64,000 bases of DNA from Armatimonadota bacterium. GTDB taxonomy: Bacteria; Sysuimicrobiota; Sysuimicrobiia; Sysuimicrobiales; Sysuimicrobiaceae. The notes beneath the pieces were generated by a model. It saw only the letters and a program-made list of their open reading frames with translations. It was not told the DNA's origin and made no database searches. Location: positions 62,001 to 126,000 of the forward strand of contig JANXCW010000007.1 of assembly GCA_025059775.1 (NCBI GenBank), given 5' to 3'. Below are positions 13,942-35,093 of this stretch, one piece after another. A program made the translations under genes and the position numbers. How positions within the stretch are numbered: the first letter of the stretch is position 1; the number at the start of each line of letters is the position of its first letter.

Positions 13942-13960
13942 AATCCTTCCGATGGAGGAG
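13942..13960 (+). promoter_or_regulatory. AATCCTTCCGATGGAGGAG motif upstream of PEP-CTERM gene
   Basis: Imperfect palindrome about 57 bases before the ATG of the PEP-CTERM protein gene. It resembles sequences at 14858, 19433, 20345, 24147 and 25121, all near exosortase-island genes. A common regulator site is inferred. Confidence 0.4.
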
Positions 13961-14016: not shown

Positions 14017-14748
14017 ATGGGTAGGAAGGGGCTTGGCGCGTGTTGGGTATCGGGTCGAAGGCGGCTGGCGATCCTGCTGGCCGGACTGTTTGTCCTCGCC
14101 GTCCCCCTCGTGGCGGCGGCGGTGTCTGTCCGGCTGTCGACCGACGGCGGGGCAACGTGGGTCCAGTGCGACGACGGAAATCTGAGTTGTGATGCAAACC
14201 CCGCCCCCGGGGTTGTGACCTTCATCGGCGCGGTCGGCCCCTTCACCGTGAACGTGACGACCGCGATCACGGAGCCGGTCCTGGGAAGTTTGAGCTTCGC
14301 CATCCTGGACTTGAACTCTGTGAACGTCTCGGGCGGACCCGGCACGCTCCTGATCCAGGCCAGCCACACTGGGTACACGGGGCCGCTTCCGGGCGGGATC
14401 TATCCTGCGGCCCTGGCGGTGGGCGGCACTGCCCCTCCGGGCGGCACCGCCCAGTTCTGGGCCTACCTGGATGACGCTAACACGTTGTTCGGCAAAGGTA
14501 GCCTCCTCGCGTCCTTCGGGCCTTTCGGGCCTGGTGGGTACAGCGGAAACGCAACAGGAGCGGCTTCTGCCACCGCGCCGTTCGCCCTCACCCTGGAGGC
14601 GAAGATCGCCCACTCGAGGGCTGGGAACTCCAGCTTTGACTTCGAGGTCCGGCCCCGGGTGGCAGAGCCGGGGATGCTGTCGCTGTTCGGCATCGGACTC
14701 GGTTCGGTGCTGGTGGGCGGCCGGCGCAGGGCCAGCCGGGTCGGGTAG
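14017..14748 (+). CDS. PEP-CTERM sorting-domain secreted protein
   Basis: An exported protein of 243 residues. N-terminal signal peptide of about 35 residues (basic RRR then LAILLAGLFVLAVPLVAAA). The mature part is rich in G, T, N and S, resembling a beta-sandwich coat protein, with three cysteines. The C-terminus has the full tripartite sorting signal: the A-E-P-G variant of the PEP motif, a hydrophobic segment (MLSLFGIGLGSVLV) and an arginine cluster (GGRRRAS). Exosortase is expected to cut at this motif and attach the protein to an acceptor at the surface. The ATG follows GGGGAGGCGTC; a GC-rich terminator follows at 14775. The mature domain has no recognised function. Confidence 0.85.
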   Translation: MGRKGLGACWVSGRRRLAILLAGLFVLAVPLVAAAVSVRLSTDGGATWVQCDDGNLSCDANPAPGVVTFIGAVGPFTVNVTTAITEPVLGSLSFAILDLNSVNVSGGPGTLLIQASHTGYTGPLPGGIYPAALAVGGTAPPGGTAQFWAYLDDANTLFGKGSLLASFGPFGPGGYSGNATGAASATAPFALTLEAKIAHSRAGNSSFDFEVRPRVAEPGMLSLFGIGLGSVLVGGRRRASRVG

Positions 14749-17996: not shown

Positions 17997-18605
17997 TCAC
18001 TCCGGCAGGCGCCGCAGGATTTCGGGCAGGGCCGCCCGCAGGAAGGCCTCCGCTCGACGCAGGGCTTCTTCCTGGTCCGACTGCACAGGAGCCGAGACCC
18101 GCACCAGGGCCCCGTCCGACCTGCGTTCCACGAGCGCCCGCCGGACCTGATCCAGTTTTGCCCGGTACGGATCCCGCACCGCGCGGCGCCCCAGCTGGTA
18201 CCAGTACAGGACCACCGCGGGCTCGCCGTGCTGCACCACCAGCGCCCGGTTCACCTCCACGCCCAGACGGCGCACCCGATGGGGACCCACCTCCCGCACC
18301 TGGCAATCCCCCCAGCAGGCGGCCTGGACCTGGGCCCGAGAGAAATCCCGGGCGAAGTATGCGATGTAGAGGAGCACGGGCCTGCCCTGCGAATCCGTAT
18401 AGCGCCGGCTGAGCCAGGCCCCCGGCCGGGTGCGGGCGAGGGCATCGGGGTCGGGCGCCTCCTGGCTACCGGTCCACCCCTCCATCCGGCGGGGCAGCGT
18501 CTCCAACCCCTCCGGGAGCGGGGTGGCCTGCCCGAGGCCGGCCTGCAGCACCGCAGCGCTCAAGAGAAGGCTACCAAGCGCGGCCAGGACCTTCGGCCCG
18601 CTCAT
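17997..18605 (-). CDS. EpsI-domain protein, exosortase partner
   Basis: 202 residues from ATG 18605, overlapping the exosortase stop (ATGA). An N-terminal hydrophobic signal/anchor (VLAALGSLLLSAAVLQAG) precedes an EpsI domain, seen in the segments LPRRMEGWTG, LLYIAYFARDFSRAQVQAACWGD and the VVLYWYQLGRR strand. EpsI domains occur alone next to, or fused to, exosortases in EpsH-type systems and are thought to assist the sortase or its acceptor. The frame extending to 19361 is a shadow of the exosortase gene. Second gene of the exosortase operon. Confidence 0.85.
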   Translation of the reverse strand: MSGPKVLAALGSLLLSAAVLQAGLGQATPLPEGLETLPRRMEGWTGSQEAPDPDALARTRPGAWLSRRYTDSQGRPVLLYIAYFARDFSRAQVQAACWGDCQVREVGPHRVRRLGVEVNRALVVQHGEPAVVLYWYQLGRRAVRDPYRAKLDQVRRALVERRSDGALVRVSAPVQSDQEEALRRAEAFLRAALPEILRRLPE

Positions 18606-19426
18606 GCCGTCCTCGAGCCGCGGCCCAGGGCCGAGGAGACCCCGACCAGCATGGCGGTGGCCACCACGAACACCATCCAGCCGGAGACCGTGTGGTAGGT
18701 GCCCTCGTAGATGCCCAGGGCGATGTTGCTGGTCACCCGCACGGCGTTGGCGAGGACGGCGATGGGGACCACGGAGGCCACGAGCACCACCCGCTCCCGC
18801 CACCGCTCCTGGGTCAGGTGCGCGAGGAGGACCCCCGTGGCCGTGAGGGCCACCAGCGACCGGAACCCGCTGCAGGCCTCCGCCACCTCCAGCTGCACGT
18901 TGGGGAGGTCGATGTAGATGCCCTCCACGTACACGGGGTAGCCCAGCAGCTGCAGCACCTCCGCGCTGAACTGGGCCGTGAAGATCTGCAGGGGCCAGGT
19001 GAGCCGCTGGAGCAGGCCCTGGGGGAGGGGGATCATCAGCCCCAAAAACAGCACCGGAAACGCCACCAGCCGCACCACGCTCCAGCCACCCAGGAGCAGC
19101 ACAAGGCCCAAGAGCACCGGGATCAGGGAGGCGCGGGCCAGGATCGCGATCCCGCCGGTCCGGCCCAGGACCAGGGCGGCAAGTCCCCAAAAAAGCACGG
19201 GAAGCCCAAGCCACGTCCCCCCCGGACGGCAGGCCCGCAGGGTCCGGCGCCGCTCCCAGACCAGGTAGGCGGCCACGGGCGGGATGTAGTAGCCGTAGCC
19301 GTAGGTGGTGTCCACCGCCCACTGGGCGGCCATGTCCCGGACCACGGGGGCGTACAGCCACCCCAGGAGGGCCGCGATCCCTCCGAGTCCTGCCGCGGTG
19401 GCGTAACGGCGCAGGTTGCCCTCCAC
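18602..19426 (-). CDS. Exosortase (EpsH/XrtA-like transpeptidase)
   Basis: Polytopic membrane enzyme of 274 residues with about eight hydrophobic segments. The catalytic triad of the family is visible: Cys185 in EACSGFRSL, Arg230 in NAVRVTSNI and His245 in YHTVSGW. It cleaves PEP-CTERM proteins at the membrane and transfers them to a surface acceptor. GTG 19426 follows GAGGAG at proper spacing. First gene of the operon with epsI and the TPR gene. Its likely substrates in this window are the proteins at 14017 and the frameshifted one at 24237, plus the 57-residue peptide at 20107. A decayed second copy of part of this gene lies at 23924. Confidence 0.93.
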   Translation of the reverse strand: MEGNLRRYATAAGLGGIAALLGWLYAPVVRDMAAQWAVDTTYGYGYYIPPVAAYLVWERRRTLRACRPGGTWLGLPVLFWGLAALVLGRTGGIAILARASLIPVLLGLVLLLGGWSVVRLVAFPVLFLGLMIPLPQGLLQRLTWPLQIFTAQFSAEVLQLLGYPVYVEGIYIDLPNVQLEVAEACSGFRSLVALTATGVLLAHLTQERWRERVVLVASVVPIAVLANAVRVTSNIALGIYEGTYHTVSGWMVFVVATAMLVGVSSALGRGSRTA

Positions 19427-19530: not shown

Positions 19531-20110
19531 CTACGCGGGCCGCCTGCGGCGCGCGAGCCCTGCCGCGGCCACCACCCCCACCAGGGCCGTCCCCATCAGG
19601 GCCAGGGAGGCGGGCTCCGAGGCCGCAACGCGAGGGCACCGAGGGTCCGGCCCCGCGCACAGGAAGTAGCCGCTGCTCCCGAACTCCACCCACCAGGTGG
19701 CGTTCTGCAGGGCTGTGAGATCCGCAGAACTGAGGTCGGCGCTGAAGTTCACGAAAAACTCCAGGGTGTCCTGGACGAAACCCAGCCCTCCGGCACCGGT
19801 GAAGGCCGTGCTCAACAGGCCACCCTGCGGGCCGTCAAGCCCCCGAGGCCCGTCGCGGTTGGGGCCTGAAGCGAACTGCCGGGTAGGTGGTGGCCGGAGG
19901 TGGCCCCGCAGGATCACCAGAACCCGTGGATCCGCTTGCGATCTTTGCCGACCCGCCCGTGATGCTCTGCGCGATGGCATTGGGGGTCCACCCGAAACTC
20001 GTGAGCAGCCGGCAGGCGGCGTCCAAACCAGCCGTCACCAGCTGAGGGCACGACCCACTCACTCCCGTCGGCAGGGGGACCGACAGTTCGAAGGTGGTCA
20101 GGTTCGTCAC
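19531..20110 (-). pseudogene. Remnant of a PEP-CTERM protein gene (copy 1)
   Basis: Homologous to the gene at 24237-25077 but lacking its signal-peptide region, lacking an internal stretch equal to 34 codons after TTYPA, and with the 3-prime part one frame off. The N-terminal remnant (VTNLTTFELSVPLPTG to about 19835) ends in frame at a stop; the C-terminal part, in the other frame, encodes GAGGLGFVQDTLEFFVNF and a complete sorting signal (ASEPASLALMGT, hydrophobic stretch, ARRRRPA). About 220 bases of the 3-prime part match the second copy almost exactly. Its 5-prime end is joined directly to the 57-residue PEP-CTERM ORF. Unlikely to make a sorted protein. Confidence 0.8.
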
Positions 20111-20280
20111 CAACTCGCAAGCCCCAGGGCCGTCAGGGCTCCGAACAGAGCGGTCCCCATCAGCACAATCCCGCCGGGTTCAGGCACCTCCCCGGGCCGC
20201 TCCTGTGCCCAGGCGGGCAAGGCTCCGGCGAGCAAGAGCAACGCAACCCCAAACACCAGCCCCCTTCCTACCTTCCGCAT
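20107..20280 (-). CDS. 57-residue peptide: signal peptide plus PEP-CTERM motif only
   Basis: ATG 20280, preceded by GAGGGGAAG, opens a 57-codon frame. Residues 1-25 form a signal peptide (MRKVGRGLVFGVALLLLAGA then LPAWA), followed by only about seven residues before a canonical V-P-E-P-G-G motif and a hydrophobic helix (IVLMGTALFGALTALGLAS). It stops at TGG-TGA without the usual final arginine cluster, at the very point where the pseudogene copy begins, so the 3-prime end was probably cut off by a rearrangement. If expressed, it could be a minimal exosortase substrate or a membrane peptide. Confidence 0.6.
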   Translation of the reverse strand: MRKVGRGLVFGVALLLLAGALPAWAQERPGEVPEPGGIVLMGTALFGALTALGLASW

Positions 20281-20344
20281 CTTCCCCTCATTAGCCTGAG
20301 AACTGCTTGCCTAAAAACTGGCGCCTCCCCCGACCCCTTGTCCG

Positions 20345-20360
20345 TCCTCCATTCGGAGGA
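20345..20360. promoter_or_regulatory. Perfect inverted repeat TCCTCC-ATTC-GGAGGA
   Basis: A 6-4-6 inverted repeat in the divergent region between the 57-residue PEP-CTERM ORF (-) and the PIG-L gene (+), about 65 bases from the former. It belongs to the island motif family; a weaker AATCCTTCG copy lies near 20395. Candidate shared operator. Confidence 0.45.
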
Positions 20361-20474
20361 AAGCTCGGGATCAAAGGGTTCCCTCCCTCCCACAATCCTT
20401 CGCTTGATTAGGTCAAACCGTTCATTCGGATAGAAGCCACTGAGCGGGGATCCGTCTAGGATGGATCGAGACCG

Positions 20475-21182
20475 ATGGACGGGTTCTGGGTGGGCCAGCG
20501 GGTTTTGGTGGTCGCCCCGCACCCTGATGACGAAGTCTACGGGTGCGGGGGAACCGTGGCCAAGGTGAAGGCTTCAGGTGGGGAGGTGTTCGTGATCGTG
20601 GGGTCGGTGGGCGACCTCCGACACTACTCCGCCGAGCACCCGCTGGTGCGGGGCGCCCAGCGTCTGGAGGAGCTGCGGGCGGCCATGGAGGTCCTGGGGG
20701 TGGACGGGTACGAGGTCCTCTTCGAGGACACCCACCGGCACATGCGTCTGGACGCAGTCCCCCGTCGGGACCTGGTGACGCTGCTGGAGCGGGAGGCCCG
20801 CTACAGCATCGACCGGATCCGGCCCACGGCGGTGATCCTGCCCCACCCCAGCTACAACCAGGACCACGAGGCCCTCTTCTGGGCCGGGTTTGCCGCCTGC
20901 CGGCCGCACCTCCCGGAGGACAAGCCCTTCGTGCGGCTGGTGCTGTCGTGTGACGCCCCGCAGCTGTGCTGGAGCCCTGCTCCCTTCCACCCCAACTTCT
21001 ACGTGGACATCTCGGAGTTCCTCGAGGTGAAGCTGCGGGCCCTTCGCTGTCACGCCTCCCAGCTGCGTCCCGACCCCCACCACGGGAGCGTGGCGAACGT
21101 GGAGCGGCTTGCGCGGCTGCGGGGTTCTGAGATCTCCGTACAGGCCGCGGAGGCGTTCACGTGCCACCGCATGGTGCTGTAG
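20475..21182 (+). CDS. PIG-L/LmbE-family N-deacetylase
   Basis: 235 residues of the LmbE/PIG-L zinc hydrolase family. The metal-binding PHPDDE motif lies at residues 15-20, the second part of the site is HPSYNQDH around residue 137, and strand VLVVAP precedes the motif. These enzymes remove acetyl groups from N-acetylglucosamine units of lipid-linked or small-molecule glycosides. It is followed by the DegT aminotransferase (22-bp overlap) and the WecA-like transferase, suggesting modification of a polyprenyl-linked amino sugar. A fragment of a second copy is present near 25171. Start ATG 20475 has only a weak ribosome site. Confidence 0.88.
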   Translation: MDGFWVGQRVLVVAPHPDDEVYGCGGTVAKVKASGGEVFVIVGSVGDLRHYSAEHPLVRGAQRLEELRAAMEVLGVDGYEVLFEDTHRHMRLDAVPRRDLVTLLEREARYSIDRIRPTAVILPHPSYNQDHEALFWAGFAACRPHLPEDKPFVRLVLSCDAPQLCWSPAPFHPNFYVDISEFLEVKLRALRCHASQLRPDPHHGSVANVERLARLRGSEISVQAAEAFTCHRMVL

Positions 21183-22267
21183 TCCCCCACTCCCGCCCCA
21201 CCCTGGATGAGGTGGACATCCAGGCGGTGGCTGAGGTCCTGCGCTCGGGACGGATCAGCCAAGGCCAGGTCACCCGCCGGTTCGAGCAGGCGGTGGCCCG
21301 GTTCCTGGGCCTTCGGGACGGGGTAGCCACCAGCTCCGGGACCGCGGCGCTGCACCTGGCGCTTGTGGCCCTGGGAGTCGGAAGCGGGGACGAGGTGATC
21401 CTACCGAGCTACACCTGCGTGGCATTGCTCCAGGCGGTGCGCTACGTGGGCGCGGTCCCGAAACTGGTGGACCTGGAACCCGAAGGCTACAACCTCTCGG
21501 TGGAAGAAGTCCGGCAGACGATCACCCGGCGCACCCGGGCCGTGCTGGTCCCCCATATGTTCGGGACTCCCGCGGCAATCGAAGCCCTGTGTGGGTTGGG
21601 GATTCCCGTGATCGAGGACATCGCCCAGGCCCTGGGGGCCGCGGTGGACGGAAGACCCGTGGGCTCCTTCGGGGATGTGGCCGTCTGCTCCTTCTACGCC
21701 ACAAAGGTGCTGACCACGGGGGAAGGCGGGATGGTGCTCTCGGACTCGGAGCTCCTGCTGCGCCGGGTTCGGGATCTCCGGGACTACGACGGTCGTCGCC
21801 GCCTGCGAACCCGGTTTAACTACAAGCTCACGGATTTCCAGGCCGCCCTGGGGTTCTCGCAGCTCCGCAGGCTGCCGGAGATGTTGGACCGTCGGCGGAG
21901 CCTCGCGGCCCGGTACGCGGAGCGGGTTCAGGTCCTGGGATTGCGGCCCCCGGCCGTGCGGCCCGGTTCGGCCCCCATCTACTACCGGTACGTGGTTTCC
22001 GTGCCCGATGCGGCAAAGGTCCGAGAGGCCCTGCAGGCGTACGGCGTGGAGAGCCCTCCGCCCGTATTCTGGCCCCTCCACCGGTACCTAAGCCTATCGG
22101 GATTTCCCCGTACGGAGCGGGCGTACCGCACCGCGCTCTCGCTCCCCCTGTATCCATCGCTCCAAGAGGAGGAGGTGGACCGGATCTTTCTGGCCCTGGA
22201 AGCCGCGCTAGTGGCACAGGAGAGAACAAGGTGGCGGGTGTCCTCCTCGCCTTCCTCTGCGCGCTAG
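21161..22267 (+). CDS. DegT/DnrJ/EryC1/StrS-family sugar aminotransferase
   Basis: A PLP-dependent sugar aminotransferase of 368 residues. Visible are the TSSGTAALHLAL cofactor-phosphate loop, VIEDIAQALGA with the aspartate that pairs with the PLP nitrogen, and the Schiff-base lysine in SFYATKVLTTGEGGM around residue 184. DegT enzymes install amino groups on keto-sugar nucleotides for surface glycans. The GTG start at 21161 overlaps the PIG-L gene by 22 bases, and the 3-prime end overlaps the WecA-like gene by 37 bases, so the three are coupled. Which keto sugar is used cannot be told. Confidence 0.88.
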   Translation: MPPHGAVVPHSRPTLDEVDIQAVAEVLRSGRISQGQVTRRFEQAVARFLGLRDGVATSSGTAALHLALVALGVGSGDEVILPSYTCVALLQAVRYVGAVPKLVDLEPEGYNLSVEEVRQTITRRTRAVLVPHMFGTPAAIEALCGLGIPVIEDIAQALGAAVDGRPVGSFGDVAVCSFYATKVLTTGEGGMVLSDSELLLRRVRDLRDYDGRRRLRTRFNYKLTDFQAALGFSQLRRLPEMLDRRRSLAARYAERVQVLGLRPPAVRPGSAPIYYRYVVSVPDAAKVREALQAYGVESPPPVFWPLHRYLSLSGFPRTERAYRTALSLPLYPSLQEEEVDRIFLALEAALVAQERTRWRVSSSPSSAR

Positions 22268-23298
22268 CGCTGGCCCTCCTGACCACCCCCGCGGCCGCGT
22301 GGGCGGCCCGGAGGCTCGGGATTTTGGACCTGCCCGCTCCCCGCAAGCTCCACCGGGTGCCCACTCCGCTTCTGGGCGGGGCGGCGGTCTACCTGGCCTT
22401 CAGCTCCGCGACCCTGCTGTGGGCCCGGCCGGTGAACGATCTGCACGTGATCCTGCTGCTTGCGGGCGCTGCGGCCTTCGCCCTGATCGGGATCGTGGAC
22501 GACGTGCGGGGAGTAGGGGCTGCGAAGCTGGCGGTAGAGGCGGGCGTGGTGGTGCTCATCGTGTGGCTGGGGGATTTCCGGCTGGGGCTTCCCTGGCCTT
22601 ACGCGGGCTATCTCGTGGCCGCGGGGTGGATCGTGGGGCTCGCGAACGCCCTCAACTGTCTGGACTGCGCGGACGGGACGGCTTCGGGCGCCGCGGCGGT
22701 GAGCGCGGGGGCGCTGGCCCTCCTCGCCATCCTGGCCCAGCGATGGGCGGTGGCCACAACGGCCGCGGCCCTGGCAGGGGCGTCCTTAGGGTTTTTGCGC
22801 TATAACTTCCCGCCCGCCCGCATCTTCCTGGGGGATTCTGGAAGCCTCATGCTGGGGTTCCTGCTGGCGGCGTTGAGCGCCGCTTTGGCCCTCAGCCTGG
22901 ACTCCGCCTGGGAGATCGCCGCTCTCGGCGTGATCCTCGGGCTTCCGGCCTGGGACTTCCTGCTGGTGCACTGGCGGCGCTACCGGAACGGGCTGCGCAA
23001 CCCCATCCAGATCATGGTCTCCACGGGAAAGGATCACCTGCCCCATCGGCTGCTGGAATCGGGGCTGCGGCCGGGTGAGGTGGTGATGCGGATCTGCGGG
23101 CTCAGCGCGGTGCTGGGGGCGAGCGGGATCGGAATGGCGCTTTGGGGGGTGGTGGGCACCGCGATCTCCGCGGGGATCCTGAGCGGGGGTGTGGTATTCC
23201 TGAACCTCGTTCGGACGGAACGCGTAGGGAGGAACGGATCCCGGCAGGCCCGGGAGGAACGACCGGACGCCTCCCTGCGCGGAGCACGGGGGATCTAG
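22231..23298 (+). CDS. WecA/MraY-family polyprenyl-phosphate sugar-1-phosphate transferase
   Basis: Polytopic membrane protein of 355 residues with about ten helices. The family motifs are present: RKLHRVPTPLLGG (N-terminal cytoplasmic loop), GIVDDV, the NALNCLDCADG catalytic Asp/Mg site and RIFLGDSGSLMLG. It transfers HexNAc-1-phosphate (or similar) from a UDP-sugar to undecaprenyl phosphate, initiating glycan synthesis. GTG 22231 has GAGAGAAC upstream and overlaps the aminotransferase gene. The last 40 residues are polar and unusual. A truncated, frameshifted copy of its second half lies at 25230-25545. Confidence 0.9.
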   Translation: MAGVLLAFLCALALALLTTPAAAWAARRLGILDLPAPRKLHRVPTPLLGGAAVYLAFSSATLLWARPVNDLHVILLLAGAAAFALIGIVDDVRGVGAAKLAVEAGVVVLIVWLGDFRLGLPWPYAGYLVAAGWIVGLANALNCLDCADGTASGAAAVSAGALALLAILAQRWAVATTAAALAGASLGFLRYNFPPARIFLGDSGSLMLGFLLAALSAALALSLDSAWEIAALGVILGLPAWDFLLVHWRRYRNGLRNPIQIMVSTGKDHLPHRLLESGLRPGEVVMRICGLSAVLGASGIGMALWGVVGTAISAGILSGGVVFLNLVRTERVGRNGSRQAREERPDASLRGARGI

Positions 23299-23361
23299 GT
23301 CAGGCTTTTCCGGACAACAGGGGAGCGGAGAGGGCCCGAGCGGAGCGCGGGAGGGGAGTCC

Positions 23362-23871
23362 ATGAATGCGCCGAGACGCGTGACCAAGCTCCAGCATCCT
23401 CCGAATCCCGGCCTCGCCCGCACCCTCACGGAGCTGGTGCACGGTCTGCGGCTCATAGAGGGGCGCCTTCTGCGCGCCATCCGGCAGGCCGCGCGGGGCG
23501 ACACGACCCCGGAGGCCCTCATCCAGGATCTGCGGGACCTCCTGGTAGACCTCCAACGTTCCTACCGGCGGGCCGAAGAGCTCCTGGACCGCCGGGACCT
23601 CCTGTTCAGCCACGAGCAGAAGCTGCGACAGATCCTCCAGCACCACGTGTGGCTCTACCGGCGCATCCACCTGGAGCAGTTTTTCCTGAGCAAGCTGCGC
23701 CTGGAGGCGCAGCTGCGGAGCATGATCTCGGAAGAGGCCTTCGAGCTCTACCAGGACCTCCAGGGGATTGACGAGCTGGAGCGGGCGTTCCTGCTGAAAA
23801 CGGATCAGGAAGTGCAGCTCTCCCTCCGGGAGAGCTCCCAGGGTGATCTCTGGATACCCCCTCACCGGTAA
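23362..23871 (+). CDS. Hypothetical alpha-helical protein
   Basis: 169 residues, starting at ATG 23362 after GGGAGGGGAGTCC, a good ribosome site. The sequence is almost wholly charged amphipathic helix (RTLTELVHGLRLIEGRLLRA, DLLVDLQRSYRRAEELLDRR, EAFELYQDLQGIDELERAF) without signal peptide or membrane segment. I do not recognise the family. It sits between the intact WecA-like gene and the collapsed second copy of the exosortase locus, at the junction of the duplication. Confidence 0.6.
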   Translation: MNAPRRVTKLQHPPNPGLARTLTELVHGLRLIEGRLLRAIRQAARGDTTPEALIQDLRDLLVDLQRSYRRAEELLDRRDLLFSHEQKLRQILQHHVWLYRRIHLEQFFLSKLRLEAQLRSMISEEAFELYQDLQGIDELERAFLLKTDQEVQLSLRESSQGDLWIPPHR

Positions 23872-23923
23872 TCCCCCCAGACAACGTGGGATACCACTTG
23901 TGAGTACGCGGGCTTGCAGGAGT

Positions 23924-24043
23924 GGGGACCAGCGGGGGAAACGCCAGGAGCCGCGCCTGCCGGCGGCCGCCCAGGAGCAGGACGAGCCCGAACAGGACTG
24001 GGACGAGGGACAGGCGGGCCAGCCGGGCGACGCCCCCGAGTCT
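23924..24043 (-). pseudogene. Exosortase gene fragment (second copy)
   Basis: About 40 codons on the minus strand read RLGGVARLARLSLVPVLFGL then VLLLGG and ARLLAFP. They align with residues 89-128 of the intact exosortase (RTGGIAILARASLIPVLLGL, VLLLGG, VRLVAFP). The catalytic Cys, Arg and His regions are absent. It occupies the same relative place to the downstream PEP-CTERM gene as exosortase does in the intact locus, and is therefore a remnant of a duplicated locus. Confidence 0.8.
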
Positions 24044-24146
24044 ATCTGCGACCAGTGGGAGGCAACAAGTTGACTGCACGGGCCTCCTGCCACGGGCACC
24101 CTCCCAGGGCATCATCTACCCGCGTGCCCAACTGCTTTCCTCTTTC

Positions 24147-24166
24147 CTCCCTCCGACCGGAGGATT
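24147..24166 (-). promoter_or_regulatory. AATCCTCCGGTCGGAGGGAG motif (second locus)
   Basis: Minus-strand motif located between the PEP-CTERM copy and the exosortase fragment, the same place as the motif at 19433 in the intact locus. The core CTCCG-AC-CGGAG is a perfect inverted repeat. Confidence 0.4.
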
Positions 24167-24236
24167 GGCCGGCATCGGTCGGCGGAGGACTTCCGGAGAC
24201 TTGAAACGTCTGCACCCGGCCTGGGGAGGGCCCGCG

Positions 24237-25077
24237 CTACGCGACGCGCTTGCGGCGCTTCAGGCCGCTCGCGGTCAGTGCCCCCGCGAGGGCCATGCCC
24301 ATGAGCGCCACAGCCGCTGGCTCGGAAGCCCGAACTGATGGCCCGCAGCGAGGGTCAGGACCTGCGCACAGGAAGTAGCCGCTGCTCCCGAACTCCACCC
24401 ACCAGGTGGCGTTCTGCAGGGCTGTGAGATCCGCAGAACTGAGGTCGGCGCTGAAGTTCACGAAAAACTCCAGGGTGTCCTGGACGAAACCCAGCCCTCC
24501 GGCACCGGTGAAGGCCTTGCTCAACAGGCCACCCTGCGGGCCGTTAAGCCCCTGAGGCCCGTCGCGGTTGGGGTCTGAAGCGAACTGCGTCATGTGGGGA
24601 TACATTGGTCGAGATGAAGTCAAGCTTCCCGGTGCCGTCCATGGGCTCGTTGTTCCCGTAGCCCCACTCCGCGCTCCAGTCCGTACCCGCCGGGTACGTA
24701 GTATTTGGCGCTGGCTTATCCCCTAACCCAGTGGATCCGGCCGCGATCTTCGCAGACCCTCCCGTGATGCTCTGCGGGATCGCATTGTGGGTCCAGCCGA
24801 AGCTAGTGAGCAGGCGGCAGGCCGCATCGAGCCCGCTTCCGACCAGGTACGGACACGTTGCGCTCACTCCGGTCGGGAGCGGGACCGACGACCCGAACGT
24901 CGTCAGGTTGGTGACGAGGATCTTCAGTTGGTTCGGCGCCGTTTGCATCACTTCGATCCTCGCCCTGTAACCGGTGGATCCTCCGAGTTGGATCACGAAC
25001 CCGTAGGCCGCCGCGGATAGCACCAGTACCCCAGCCAGGGCTAGAGTTGCGGAGACATAGCGAGTGCGCCTACACAC
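24237..25077 (-). pseudogene. PEP-CTERM protein gene (copy 2), interrupted by a +1 frame change
   Basis: Starts at GTG 25077 behind AAGAGGTG. Signal peptide (VCRRTRYVSATLALAGVLVL SAAAYG region), then a mature domain with TGYRARIEV, ILVTNLTTFGSSVPLPTGVS and GWTHNAIPQSITGGSAKIA. This frame ends at 24544; the continuation TQFASDPNRDGPQG, GAGGLGFVQDTLEFFVNFSA and a complete sorting signal (ASEPAAVALMGMAL, helix, KRRKR) lies one frame off, readable from about 24623 to 24237. One base removed near 24590-24610 would join them. Without a frame change it yields a secreted protein lacking its anchor. Copy 1 at 19531 is out of frame at the same site. Confidence 0.75.
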
Positions 25078-25120
25078 CTCGACACCTCTTGGAGCTTGCC
25101 CGCTAGCGGGGGCCTCTGCC

Positions 25121-25138
25121 ATCCTCCGAACGGATGAT
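25121..25138. promoter_or_regulatory. ATCCTCCGAACGGATGAT motif (second locus)
   Basis: Lies about 45 bases upstream of the copy-2 PEP-CTERM start, between it and the PIG-L/WecA remnant, like the repeat at 20345 in the intact locus. A perfect 12-bp palindrome CCCGCTAGCGGG at 25099-25110 sits between it and the GTG. Confidence 0.4.
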
Positions 25139-25170: not shown

Positions 25171-25545
25171 ATCCTCGAGCGGGAGGTCCGCTCCAGCATG
25201 GACCGGGTGCGGCCCGCGGTGGTGGCTACTACGGCCGCGGCCTTGGCTGGAGCCTCCTTGGGATTTCTCTGCGCTACAACTTCCCGCCCGCCCGCATCTT
25301 CCTGGGCGACTCCGGGAGTCTCATGCTGGGATTCCTGCTGGCAGCCCTGAGCGCGGCCCTCGCCCTTAGCCTGGAGTCCACCTGGGAGCTTGTGGCCTTG
25401 GGGGTGATCCTCGCGCTCCCTGCTTGGGACTTCCTCCTGGTACACTGGCGACGCTACCGGCAGGGCCTGCGTACCCCCCTCCAGATCATGGTCTCCACGG
25501 GAAAGAACTCCCTTCACCGGCTGTTGAGCTCAGGGTTGCGTCCCT
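25171..25545 (+). pseudogene. PIG-L/WecA fusion remnant
   Basis: The first 55 bases read LEREVRSSMDRVRPAVV and match the PIG-L deacetylase (LEREARYSIDRIRPTAV). They run straight into ATTAAALAGASLGFL, which matches the WecA-like transferase around residue 175, so a deletion removed everything between, including any DegT copy. A two-base insertion then shifts the frame (GGATTTCTCTGCGC versus GGGTTTTTGCGC), after which RYNFPPARIFLGDSGSLMLG and WDFLLVHWRRYRQGLR are readable up to SGLRPS. The last 15 bases overlap the 3-prime end of the convergent aminotransferase gene. Non-functional relic of the duplicated locus. Confidence 0.85.
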
Positions 25546-32964: not shown

Positions 32965-34010
32965 TTACCGGTAGATCTCCGAGGCAAGCCGAAGGAGTTC
33001 CTCCCCCCTCGGGGGATCCGATGTCTCCCACAAGGGGACCCCCAGGAGGGTTCGCTGTTCAGACGGCGCCTGGCGGATGAAGCCAGCCACGGCGGGGAGG
33101 ACGAAATTCTCGTAGAGGTTCCGCTGGACGGCATCCGAGAGAAGCAGCTCCGCAAACAACCGGGCAGCGTTGGGGTGCCGGACCTCCTTGGGTATCGAGA
33201 CCCCCTGCAGCACGTAGGGCGCGCCTTCCCGGGGGATCACCACCTTCACGTTGGGGAGATCCCGGACCCTGGGATGCAATCCCAGGGCAAAGGGGTACAT
33301 CAGGGCGAACTCGCCCCGGGCTACCCGGTTCGCGGCTTCCGCGATGGCCCTGGTGAGGAAGGGGCGCTGTGCCGCCAGTTGCTCGTGGTATCCCCGCCCG
33401 AGGCGCTTGTAGGTGGCCGCGAAGAACACGGACCCTCCCCCGAAGGCCCTGGGGTCGTCCGCAATCATCCTGCCCCTCCACCTGGAATCCAGGAGATCCA
33501 TCCAGCTCCGGGGCTCCTCTCCGGACGGGACCAGCCGGGTGTTGATCAGGATGCCGTAGAGCTGCACGGCTTCCACCAGCATGACGTCGTCGATCTCCCA
33601 CTCCTGTAGCTTCAACCGGATCTGCGCGGCCACCCGTCTCCCGCTGGGGAGCTCCCCAAGGGGTTGCACGGTCTGCTGGAGCTTCTTCATCTGCCAGGCC
33701 TGGCTCGGGCCTACGGTGACGAGATCCGCGAGCGGGCGGCCCGCCCGTTGCTCGATCCGCACCCGTTCCTGGGCCTCGCTGGCTCGCATCACGCTCAGCT
33801 CCACGCGGATGCCGTACATTCGCTGAAACAGCTCCGCGGCGAACGGGATGGTGGGAAGAGCGCCCCCGTGGCCGTCGTACAGGACCAGGGTCCTCTCCCT
33901 CCGGGCCGCGGCCACCACCTGGGCCCACGAGCTCCCGGCCCCCCTGCCACCCCCTGGCTAGACCAGACCACCGCGAGGATCAGAATCGCGGCGAGAAGTA
34001 TCCGCTGCAT
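32965..34010 (-). pseudogene. Iron-type ABC transporter substrate-binding protein, frameshifted at a G-run
   Basis: The mature protein from about 33918 (VVAAARRERTLVLYDGHGG) has the FbpA/PotD-like fold: two strands, LITVGP-type ligand loop (LADLVTVGPSQAW), MYPFALGLHPRV, EIYR end. Its signal peptide (MQRILLAAILILAVVW, ATG 34010) lies in a different frame. One base missing from the run of six C on the plus strand (33939-33944) separates them: seven would read AGGAGSSWAQ into the mature frame with a normal cleavage site. So either the gene is a recent pseudogene, the run varies by slippage (phase variation), or the assembly is wrong. It has a full-length paralogue just upstream. Confidence 0.75.
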
Positions 34011-34025
34011 GCCCAGATCCCTCCA

Positions 34026-35093
34026 CTACCGATAGATTTCGCTCGCCCTCCGGAGATACTCGGGCTCCACCCGGGGATCCACCACGGTGTCCCAGAGTCG
34101 GACGCGCAGGAAGGGCCGGACGTCCTCCGGCGCCTGCTGGTCATACCCACGCAGCACCGGCAGGATGAAATCCTGCATCAGCCGGACCTGTACCTCCCGG
34201 GAGAGCAGGAACTCGCTGAAGGCCACCGCCGCATTCGGATGGTCGCTGCGCCGGGGCAGGGAGACGCCCAGGGGGACGTAGGGAGCTCCTTCCCGGGGGA
34301 TAATGAGCTTCACGGGGCCCCCGCGAACCCGCGGATACAGCCCCAGGGCGAAGGGAGCCATCGCCGCGAATTCCCCCCGGGCCACCCGGCTGGCCGCATC
34401 CGCGATTCCCCGTGTGAGGAAGGGTCGCTGGGCCGCGAGATCCTCCTGGAATCTCCGTCCCAGCGCCCGGTAGGTCACCTGGAACAGGACCTGGCCGCCC
34501 CCTGGAGCCCTGGGGTCGTCCATGATGAGCCTGCCCCGCCATCGGGGATCCGCAAGATCGCTCCAGCTCTTCGGTTCCTCTTCAGGCCGCACCAGGTTCG
34601 TGTTGATCAGGATCCCGTACAGCTGGATCAGGAACGGTAGGAGGTAGCGCTGCAGATCCCACTCCTGAACCTTCAACCGGACCTGCGGCGCGATCCGGGG
34701 AGCGCTGGGAAGTTCCTCGAAGGGGCGCAGGACTCCCTCGTCCAGCATGGGGCGGGTGGTCCCGGACCCCGCGGTCACGAGATCCGCGATGGCGCGGCCG
34801 GCCCGCTGCTCCACCCGGATGCGCTCGATGGACTCGCTGGCCCGCATGACGGCCACCTCGACCTTCACCCCGTGCGTGGCCTCGAACCGCTCCGCGGCGT
34901 ACTGTACGGTGGGAACCGCGCCTCCGAAGGCATCGTACACCACCAGACGGCCCTCCCGCCTCGCGGCCTGGAGGATCTGGTTCCATTCCCGGGCCGGTGC
35001 GGTTCCCCCCGCGGGAGTCAGCAACCAACCGATCAGGAGCAATCCCACCGCAACCCGCAACACCTTTCCAGTCCACCTTTCGCCTCGTCCCAT
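34026..35093 (-). CDS. Iron(III)-type ABC transporter substrate-binding protein
   Basis: 355 residues from ATG 35093 (35108 is an alternative). Signal peptide LRVAVGLLLIGWLLTPAGG, then REWNQILQAARREGRLVVYDAFGG as the first strand, the ADLVTAGSGTTRP ligand loop, GILINTNLV and DHPNAAVAFSEFLLS typical of type II binding proteins (SBP_bac_6/8 group, ferric ion or polyamine). It is clearly paralogous to the next gene (LRVRLWDTVVDPR versus GVPLWETSDPPR; both end EIYR). No permease or ATPase gene lies beside the pair, so partners must be encoded elsewhere. The ligand is not fixed; iron, polyamine and small organic anions are possible. Confidence 0.82.
   Translation of the reverse strand: MGRGERWTGKVLRVAVGLLLIGWLLTPAGGTAPAREWNQILQAARREGRLVVYDAFGGAVPTVQYAAERFEATHGVKVEVAVMRASESIERIRVEQRAGRAIADLVTAGSGTTRPMLDEGVLRPFEELPSAPRIAPQVRLKVQEWDLQRYLLPFLIQLYGILINTNLVRPEEEPKSWSDLADPRWRGRLIMDDPRAPGGGQVLFQVTYRALGRRFQEDLAAQRPFLTRGIADAASRVARGEFAAMAPFALGLYPRVRGGPVKLIIPREGAPYVPLGVSLPRRSDHPNAAVAFSEFLLSREVQVRLMQDFILPVLRGYDQQAPEDVRPFLRVRLWDTVVDPRVEPEYLRRASEIYR

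Follow-up and report, generated by a model that had tools for sequence, protein, structure and literature searches.

Two surface-protein genes lie 4.7 kb apart in the stretch of DNA analyzed here, a 64,000-nucleotide window on one contig of an Armatimonadota genome, and they share an internal segment that is nearly identical while the sequence on either side of it is not. How does one segment stay, or become, so much alike in two otherwise divergent genes? The original prediction was that a sorting-domain cassette had been recombined into place, a means of supplying one and the same anchor to new mature domains. The recombination is borne out, strongly, by a three-way comparison and by synonymous sites. 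The cassette is not. The tract is an ordinary recombination scar, very probably left by a recent ectopic gene conversion between old, decaying paralogs.

The shared tract and the genes around it

Copy 1 spans about positions 19531-20110 on the minus strand, beside an intact exosortase gene (18602-19426, minus strand; PF09721 match at 3.4e-70, best NCBIfam matches XrtW and XrtA, 85% amino acid identity to the exosortase of a same-genus genome, G001). Copy 2 occupies 24237-25122, also on the minus strand. The tract proper, at 19655-19879 in copy 1 and 24364-24588 in copy 2 (both minus strand), is 225 nt long with 4 substitutions, just the count that had been judged by eye; the edges first proposed, 19651-19875, were off by 4 nt. 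In copy 1 coordinates the substitutions are at 19865, 19844, 19836, and 19808. The other 153 nt (19655-19807) hold no difference at all, an exact identity known from the assembly alone, which is a draft in 59 contigs.

Identity between the copies is 98.2% within the tract (222 scored columns) and falls at once on either side, to 74.2% in the upstream coding part (19895-20109), 69.4% in the PEP-CTERM end (19531-19654), and 58.9% in the 3' flank. The edges are therefore sharp, and identity is anything but uniform along the copies, which speaks against a simple recent duplication. The upstream halves had been called much more divergent, which they are, but the downstream end with the sorting signal is equally divergent and had been overlooked. 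Tract and flanks differ at P = 3e-18 (Fisher test), and in a GENECONV-like permutation of the polymorphic sites, the observed identical run was reached in 0 of 20,000 shuffles.

One edge of the tract, at GCAGTTCGC, had been said to coincide with the end of a gap in copy 1. It does: the gap falls between 19879 and 19880, where the junction shows a 2-bp GC microhomology, and the alignments place there a 102-nt segment of copy 2 (24589-24690, minus strand) that abuts the tract and is absent from copy 1. What remains of the upstream half of copy 1 (19880-20110, minus strand; 74.2% identical to copy 2) has lost its start and signal peptide to a second lesion, a deletion that joins the middle of the surface gene to a neighboring mini PEP-CTERM gene. 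Copy 2 is damaged in another way. Its upstream half (24589-25122, minus strand) keeps a signal peptide, but one extra base just upstream of the tract, in a GGGG run at 24596-24599 (CCCC in gene sense) that is one base longer than in the G001 ortholog, costs it the frame. As the alignment and stop codons show, the open frame enters the tract out of frame. The upstream open reading frame (ORF) matches the XDD4 exosortase-dependent surface protein model NF045504 weakly (23.9 bits, short of the cut-off of 40), and the matches listed for the intact protein of G001 do not include that model. Judged by their reading frames, both copies are pseudogenes.

The mini gene deserves a word of its own. It encodes about 60 amino acids (20107-20280, minus strand; also at locus L014, 9566-9751, plus strand), in which a PEP-CTERM signal comes nearly straight after the signal peptide, leaving next to no mature domain. 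In G001 it is intact, at 61 amino acids, and has its own upstream inverted repeat; in the window its 3' end is cut off by the deletion that fuses it to copy 1.

Where, then, is the sorting signal? A PEP-CTERM-type end was taken as a TIGR02595 match of at least 16 bits followed by a helix and a basic tail. Such ends are found on the copies, outside the tract, and the tract itself has no such signal. The end of copy 1 (19531-19654, minus strand; SEPASLALMG...ARRRRPA; 69.4% identical to copy 2) scores 17.5 bits as an ORF and 17.0 bits in the genome search. The end of copy 2 (24237-24363, minus strand; SEPAAVALMG...KRRKRVA) scores 14.6 and 17.4 bits, respectively. The tract encodes instead the C-terminal part of the exported domain (QFAS.PNRDGP...WWVEFGSSGYFLC) and stops about 18 nt ahead of the SEP codons. 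Signal, membrane helix, and basic tail are all encoded 3' of it in gene sense, in a segment of 69% identity that is among the most divergent parts of the pair. The half of the gene that lies outside the tract belongs to the same family in both copies, so there is no new mature domain to which an anchor could have been supplied.

Conversion and its rivals

The third sequence in the comparison is the only homolog in G001, an intact 287-amino-acid gene in the syntenic position beside the exosortase of that genome. In the coding flanks, copy 1, copy 2, and this ortholog stand at roughly similar mutual distances. In the tract, and only there, the two copies are closer to each other (98.2%) than to the ortholog (82.0% for copy 1 and 81.1% for copy 2), synonymous sites included. 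Codon by codon, the two copies show 0.59 synonymous differences per site upstream, 0 in the tract, and 0.54 downstream; from tract to ortholog the figure is 0.49-0.50.

How do other explanations fare against these figures? The least improbable, though still unlikely, holds that copy 2 works, through programmed frameshifting or with the extra base a sequencing error, and that the conversion was a repair event in which one partner was functional and the other a relic. Copy 2 does retain its signal peptide, sorting signal, and upstream inverted repeat, and the frameshift lies at a short CCCC run. The G001 ortholog, however, lacks such a run and reads straight through, and every one of the four later changes is nonsynonymous.

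A somewhat smaller chance attaches to an assembly artifact in which both copies were built from the short reads of just one. The genome is a 59-contig draft, and 153 exactly identical nucleotides come close to a read length. Against this, the 4 differences in the first 72 nt demand two distinct copies there, copy 1 is syntenic with G001 on both flanks, and the 2 bp shared at the deletion junction are too few to make a k-mer path or to let an assembler invent the join.

Could purifying selection on protein or DNA keep the segment alike with no recombination at all? Between species the tract is somewhat better conserved (82%) than the flanks (66-73%), and with pN/pS at about 0.16 against the ortholog, the sequence had evolved under protein constraint before the conversion. 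Yet none of the roughly 52 synonymous sites in the tract differs between the copies. Since synonymous divergence is 0 between them and 0.49-0.50 to G001, constraint at the protein level cannot explain the identity. All 4 differences are nonsynonymous and both genes are broken, which leaves this explanation highly improbable. The 4 changes since the conversion are consistent with drift, but they are few.

There is almost no chance that the tract is a PEP-CTERM sorting cassette, mobile or shuffled, by which new mature domains acquire a common anchor. Its sharp edges, and its position within the 3' half of its gene, suit such a cassette, but the sorting signal falls outside it, at the poorly matching end, both copies are broken and of one family, no flanking terminal repeats are common to the two, plasmids and phages gave no match, and the search for more copies, recommended at the outset, found only the pair in the 2.35-Mb genome and, in the protein search of 60 relatives, only the single ortholog in the sister species G001. 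Neither terminal repeats nor copies in other contexts, by which a mobile cassette would be recognized, were thus found. The corrective value of the comparison is that it removes a tempting portable-anchor story.

An old duplicate, probably converted recently

Conversion between paralogs presupposes a duplication, and its remains are visible around copy 2. Self-comparison of the window pairs an exosortase block (19056-19141) with 23937-24022 at 74%, a glycosyltransferase block (22746-23031) with 25218-25505 at 83%, and the upstream halves of the two surface genes at 78%. The remnants are an exosortase piece (23937-24038, minus strand) similar to that of the first unit, an LmbE-type deacetylase piece (25174-25224, plus strand; 84% to 20784-20834), and a GT4 glycosyltransferase piece (25218-25543, plus strand; 80-83% to the first unit and to G001). 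These paralogous blocks flank copy 2 on either side and keep their order, which argues that copy 2 belongs to a second, decayed version of a unit that would have read exosortase, surface protein, deacetylase, aminotransferase, glycosyltransferase.

How old is the second unit? Its glycosyltransferase is 83-85% identical to that of either the first unit or G001, while those two are 89% identical to each other. By this glycosyltransferase, and likewise by the exosortase fragment and 3' flank, the unit of copy 2 falls outside the pair formed by the window and G001. It follows that the flanks predate the species split and that the duplicate is either old or derived from another lineage; the tract was homogenized much later.

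The pathway and the order of events can be proposed as follows. A block running from exosortase to glycosyltransferase would have been duplicated long ago, in tandem or by import from a related lineage, and the second unit would then have mostly decayed. Long afterward, homologous recombination between the surface-protein copies, acting as direct repeats, would have replaced 225 bp of one with the sequence of the other, which would account for the sharp edges. The edge at the gap may have arisen in either of two ways. (i) The 102-nt deletion came first, and the conversion stopped where homology stopped. (ii) A single repair event, homologous at one end, copied the tract, and microhomology closed its far end, making tract and gap together. 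Transfer from copy 2 to copy 1 is slightly favored because copy 1 carries the join; the distances to G001 (82.0% versus 81.1%) do not separate donor from recipient, and a third, unsampled donor is possible. The conversion was seen once, in one genome, and from such data it can be neither dated nor polarized.

The case has clear relatives. Interlocus (ectopic) gene conversion between duplicated genes has been reviewed (PMC3924818), with examples from M. tuberculosis (PMC12046097). As far as those accounts were available, the present case resembles theirs in its short, sharp-edged tract with identity well above the flanks, in paralogs located on one chromosome, and in homogenized synonymous sites; it departs from them in that both partners are pseudogenes and one edge falls at a deletion junction. 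The setting is that of the PEP-CTERM/exosortase (EpsH) sorting system described by Haft in 2006 (PMC1569441): the exosortase adjoins a substrate gene, the substrate has a signal peptide and a C-terminal signal, helix, and basic tail, and polysaccharide-type genes are adjacent. The present case departs from that system in its signal, which reads SEP instead of PEP in this protein, in the broken state of the local substrates, and in the small number of substrates in the genome. No paper was found in a literature search that combined exosortase, PEP-CTERM, and gene conversion. The tract is best regarded as an ordinary, if well-resolved, gene conversion, one between duplicates in the process of being lost.

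Surface proteins are also varied from silent cassettes. In the pilin system pilE/pilS, for example, a fuller copy trades an internal segment with a partial one that lacks a promoter. The present pair may likewise be read as a partial, promoterless copy and a fuller one with an internal segment exchanged; it differs in having no intact expressed partner in the assembly, in comprising two copies only, and in being made alike rather than varied. That partial copies of exosortase substrates serve as silent donors, repeatedly rewriting the exported domain by segmental conversion where one copy is intact and expressed, is very doubtful.

The window contains one other tandem pair, at 33197-33907 and 34261-34968, which is 69% identical over 721 columns.

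Substrates and an upstream inverted repeat

With both neighboring substrates broken, does the exosortase have anything left to sort? An exosortase bereft of every substrate was considered and rejected: an unlinked PEP-CTERM gene in the same genome (G000:C8:90526-91359) keeps a 271-amino-acid frame with the signal.

A further candidate came from an inverted repeat, ATCCTYC-N4-GRAGGAT, that many PEP-CTERM genes of this order carry upstream. Sites at 20344-20361, 24148-24165, and 25121-25138 are near both surface-gene copies, and a fourth in the window is at 13943-13960. The repeat also stands upstream of an unlinked PEP-CTERM gene in the own genome (G000:C8:91396) and in G001, whose sites are at C6:93490, C6:93830, and C1:466182. 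PEP-CTERM genes preceded by it occur in two species of the genus and, within the same order, in several genomes from another family. At five scored loci of the own genome and G001, 12 or 13 of its 14 positions match. Among 27 stretches around PEP-CTERM genes in other genomes of the order, 8 match at 13 or 14 of 14 positions, with shuffles as good in at most 1 of 100, and the remaining stretches gave no good match. Sites with at most one mismatch number 7-14 in genomes with an exosortase or several PEP-CTERM genes and 1-3 in four others; the reversed pattern has no sites anywhere in the same genomes. Many single sites fall inside long open frames and are probably due to chance. In reading these scores, it should be kept in mind that deriving the pattern had drawn in part on the very genes then scored, and the site at 13943-13960, unused in defining it, is the sole independent check.

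That site lies 56 nt ahead of an ORF at 14017-14748 (plus strand), located through the repeat, which encodes 243 amino acids with a signal-peptide-like start and a C terminus reading VAEPGMLSLFGIGLGSVLVGGRRRASRVG / AEPGMLSLFGIGLGSVLVGGRRRASRVG. Although the TIGR02595 genome search does not list it, its product is likely a previously unrecognized exosortase substrate. Haft (PMC1569441) described a shared upstream motif of sigma-54 type in Proteobacteria only and expected other motifs to be discovered. The inverted repeat may be such a motif outside Proteobacteria, a regulatory site common to exosortase substrates; as a possible mark of these substrates in a nonproteobacterial group, it is a more useful lead than the tract.

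Two loci elsewhere invite a closer look. At L103, a copy of the repeat (G039:C67:31781-31798) is 59 nt upstream of a gene that, by eye, resembles a NarL/LuxR-type response regulator, and it is possible that this gene's product regulates the repeat. At L056 (G041:C170:6000-9954), five PEP-CTERM genes stand in a row with near-identical signals (VPEPSTGLLLGAALPALLG...), and this array is a better place than the present pair for seeking recombination between substrates.
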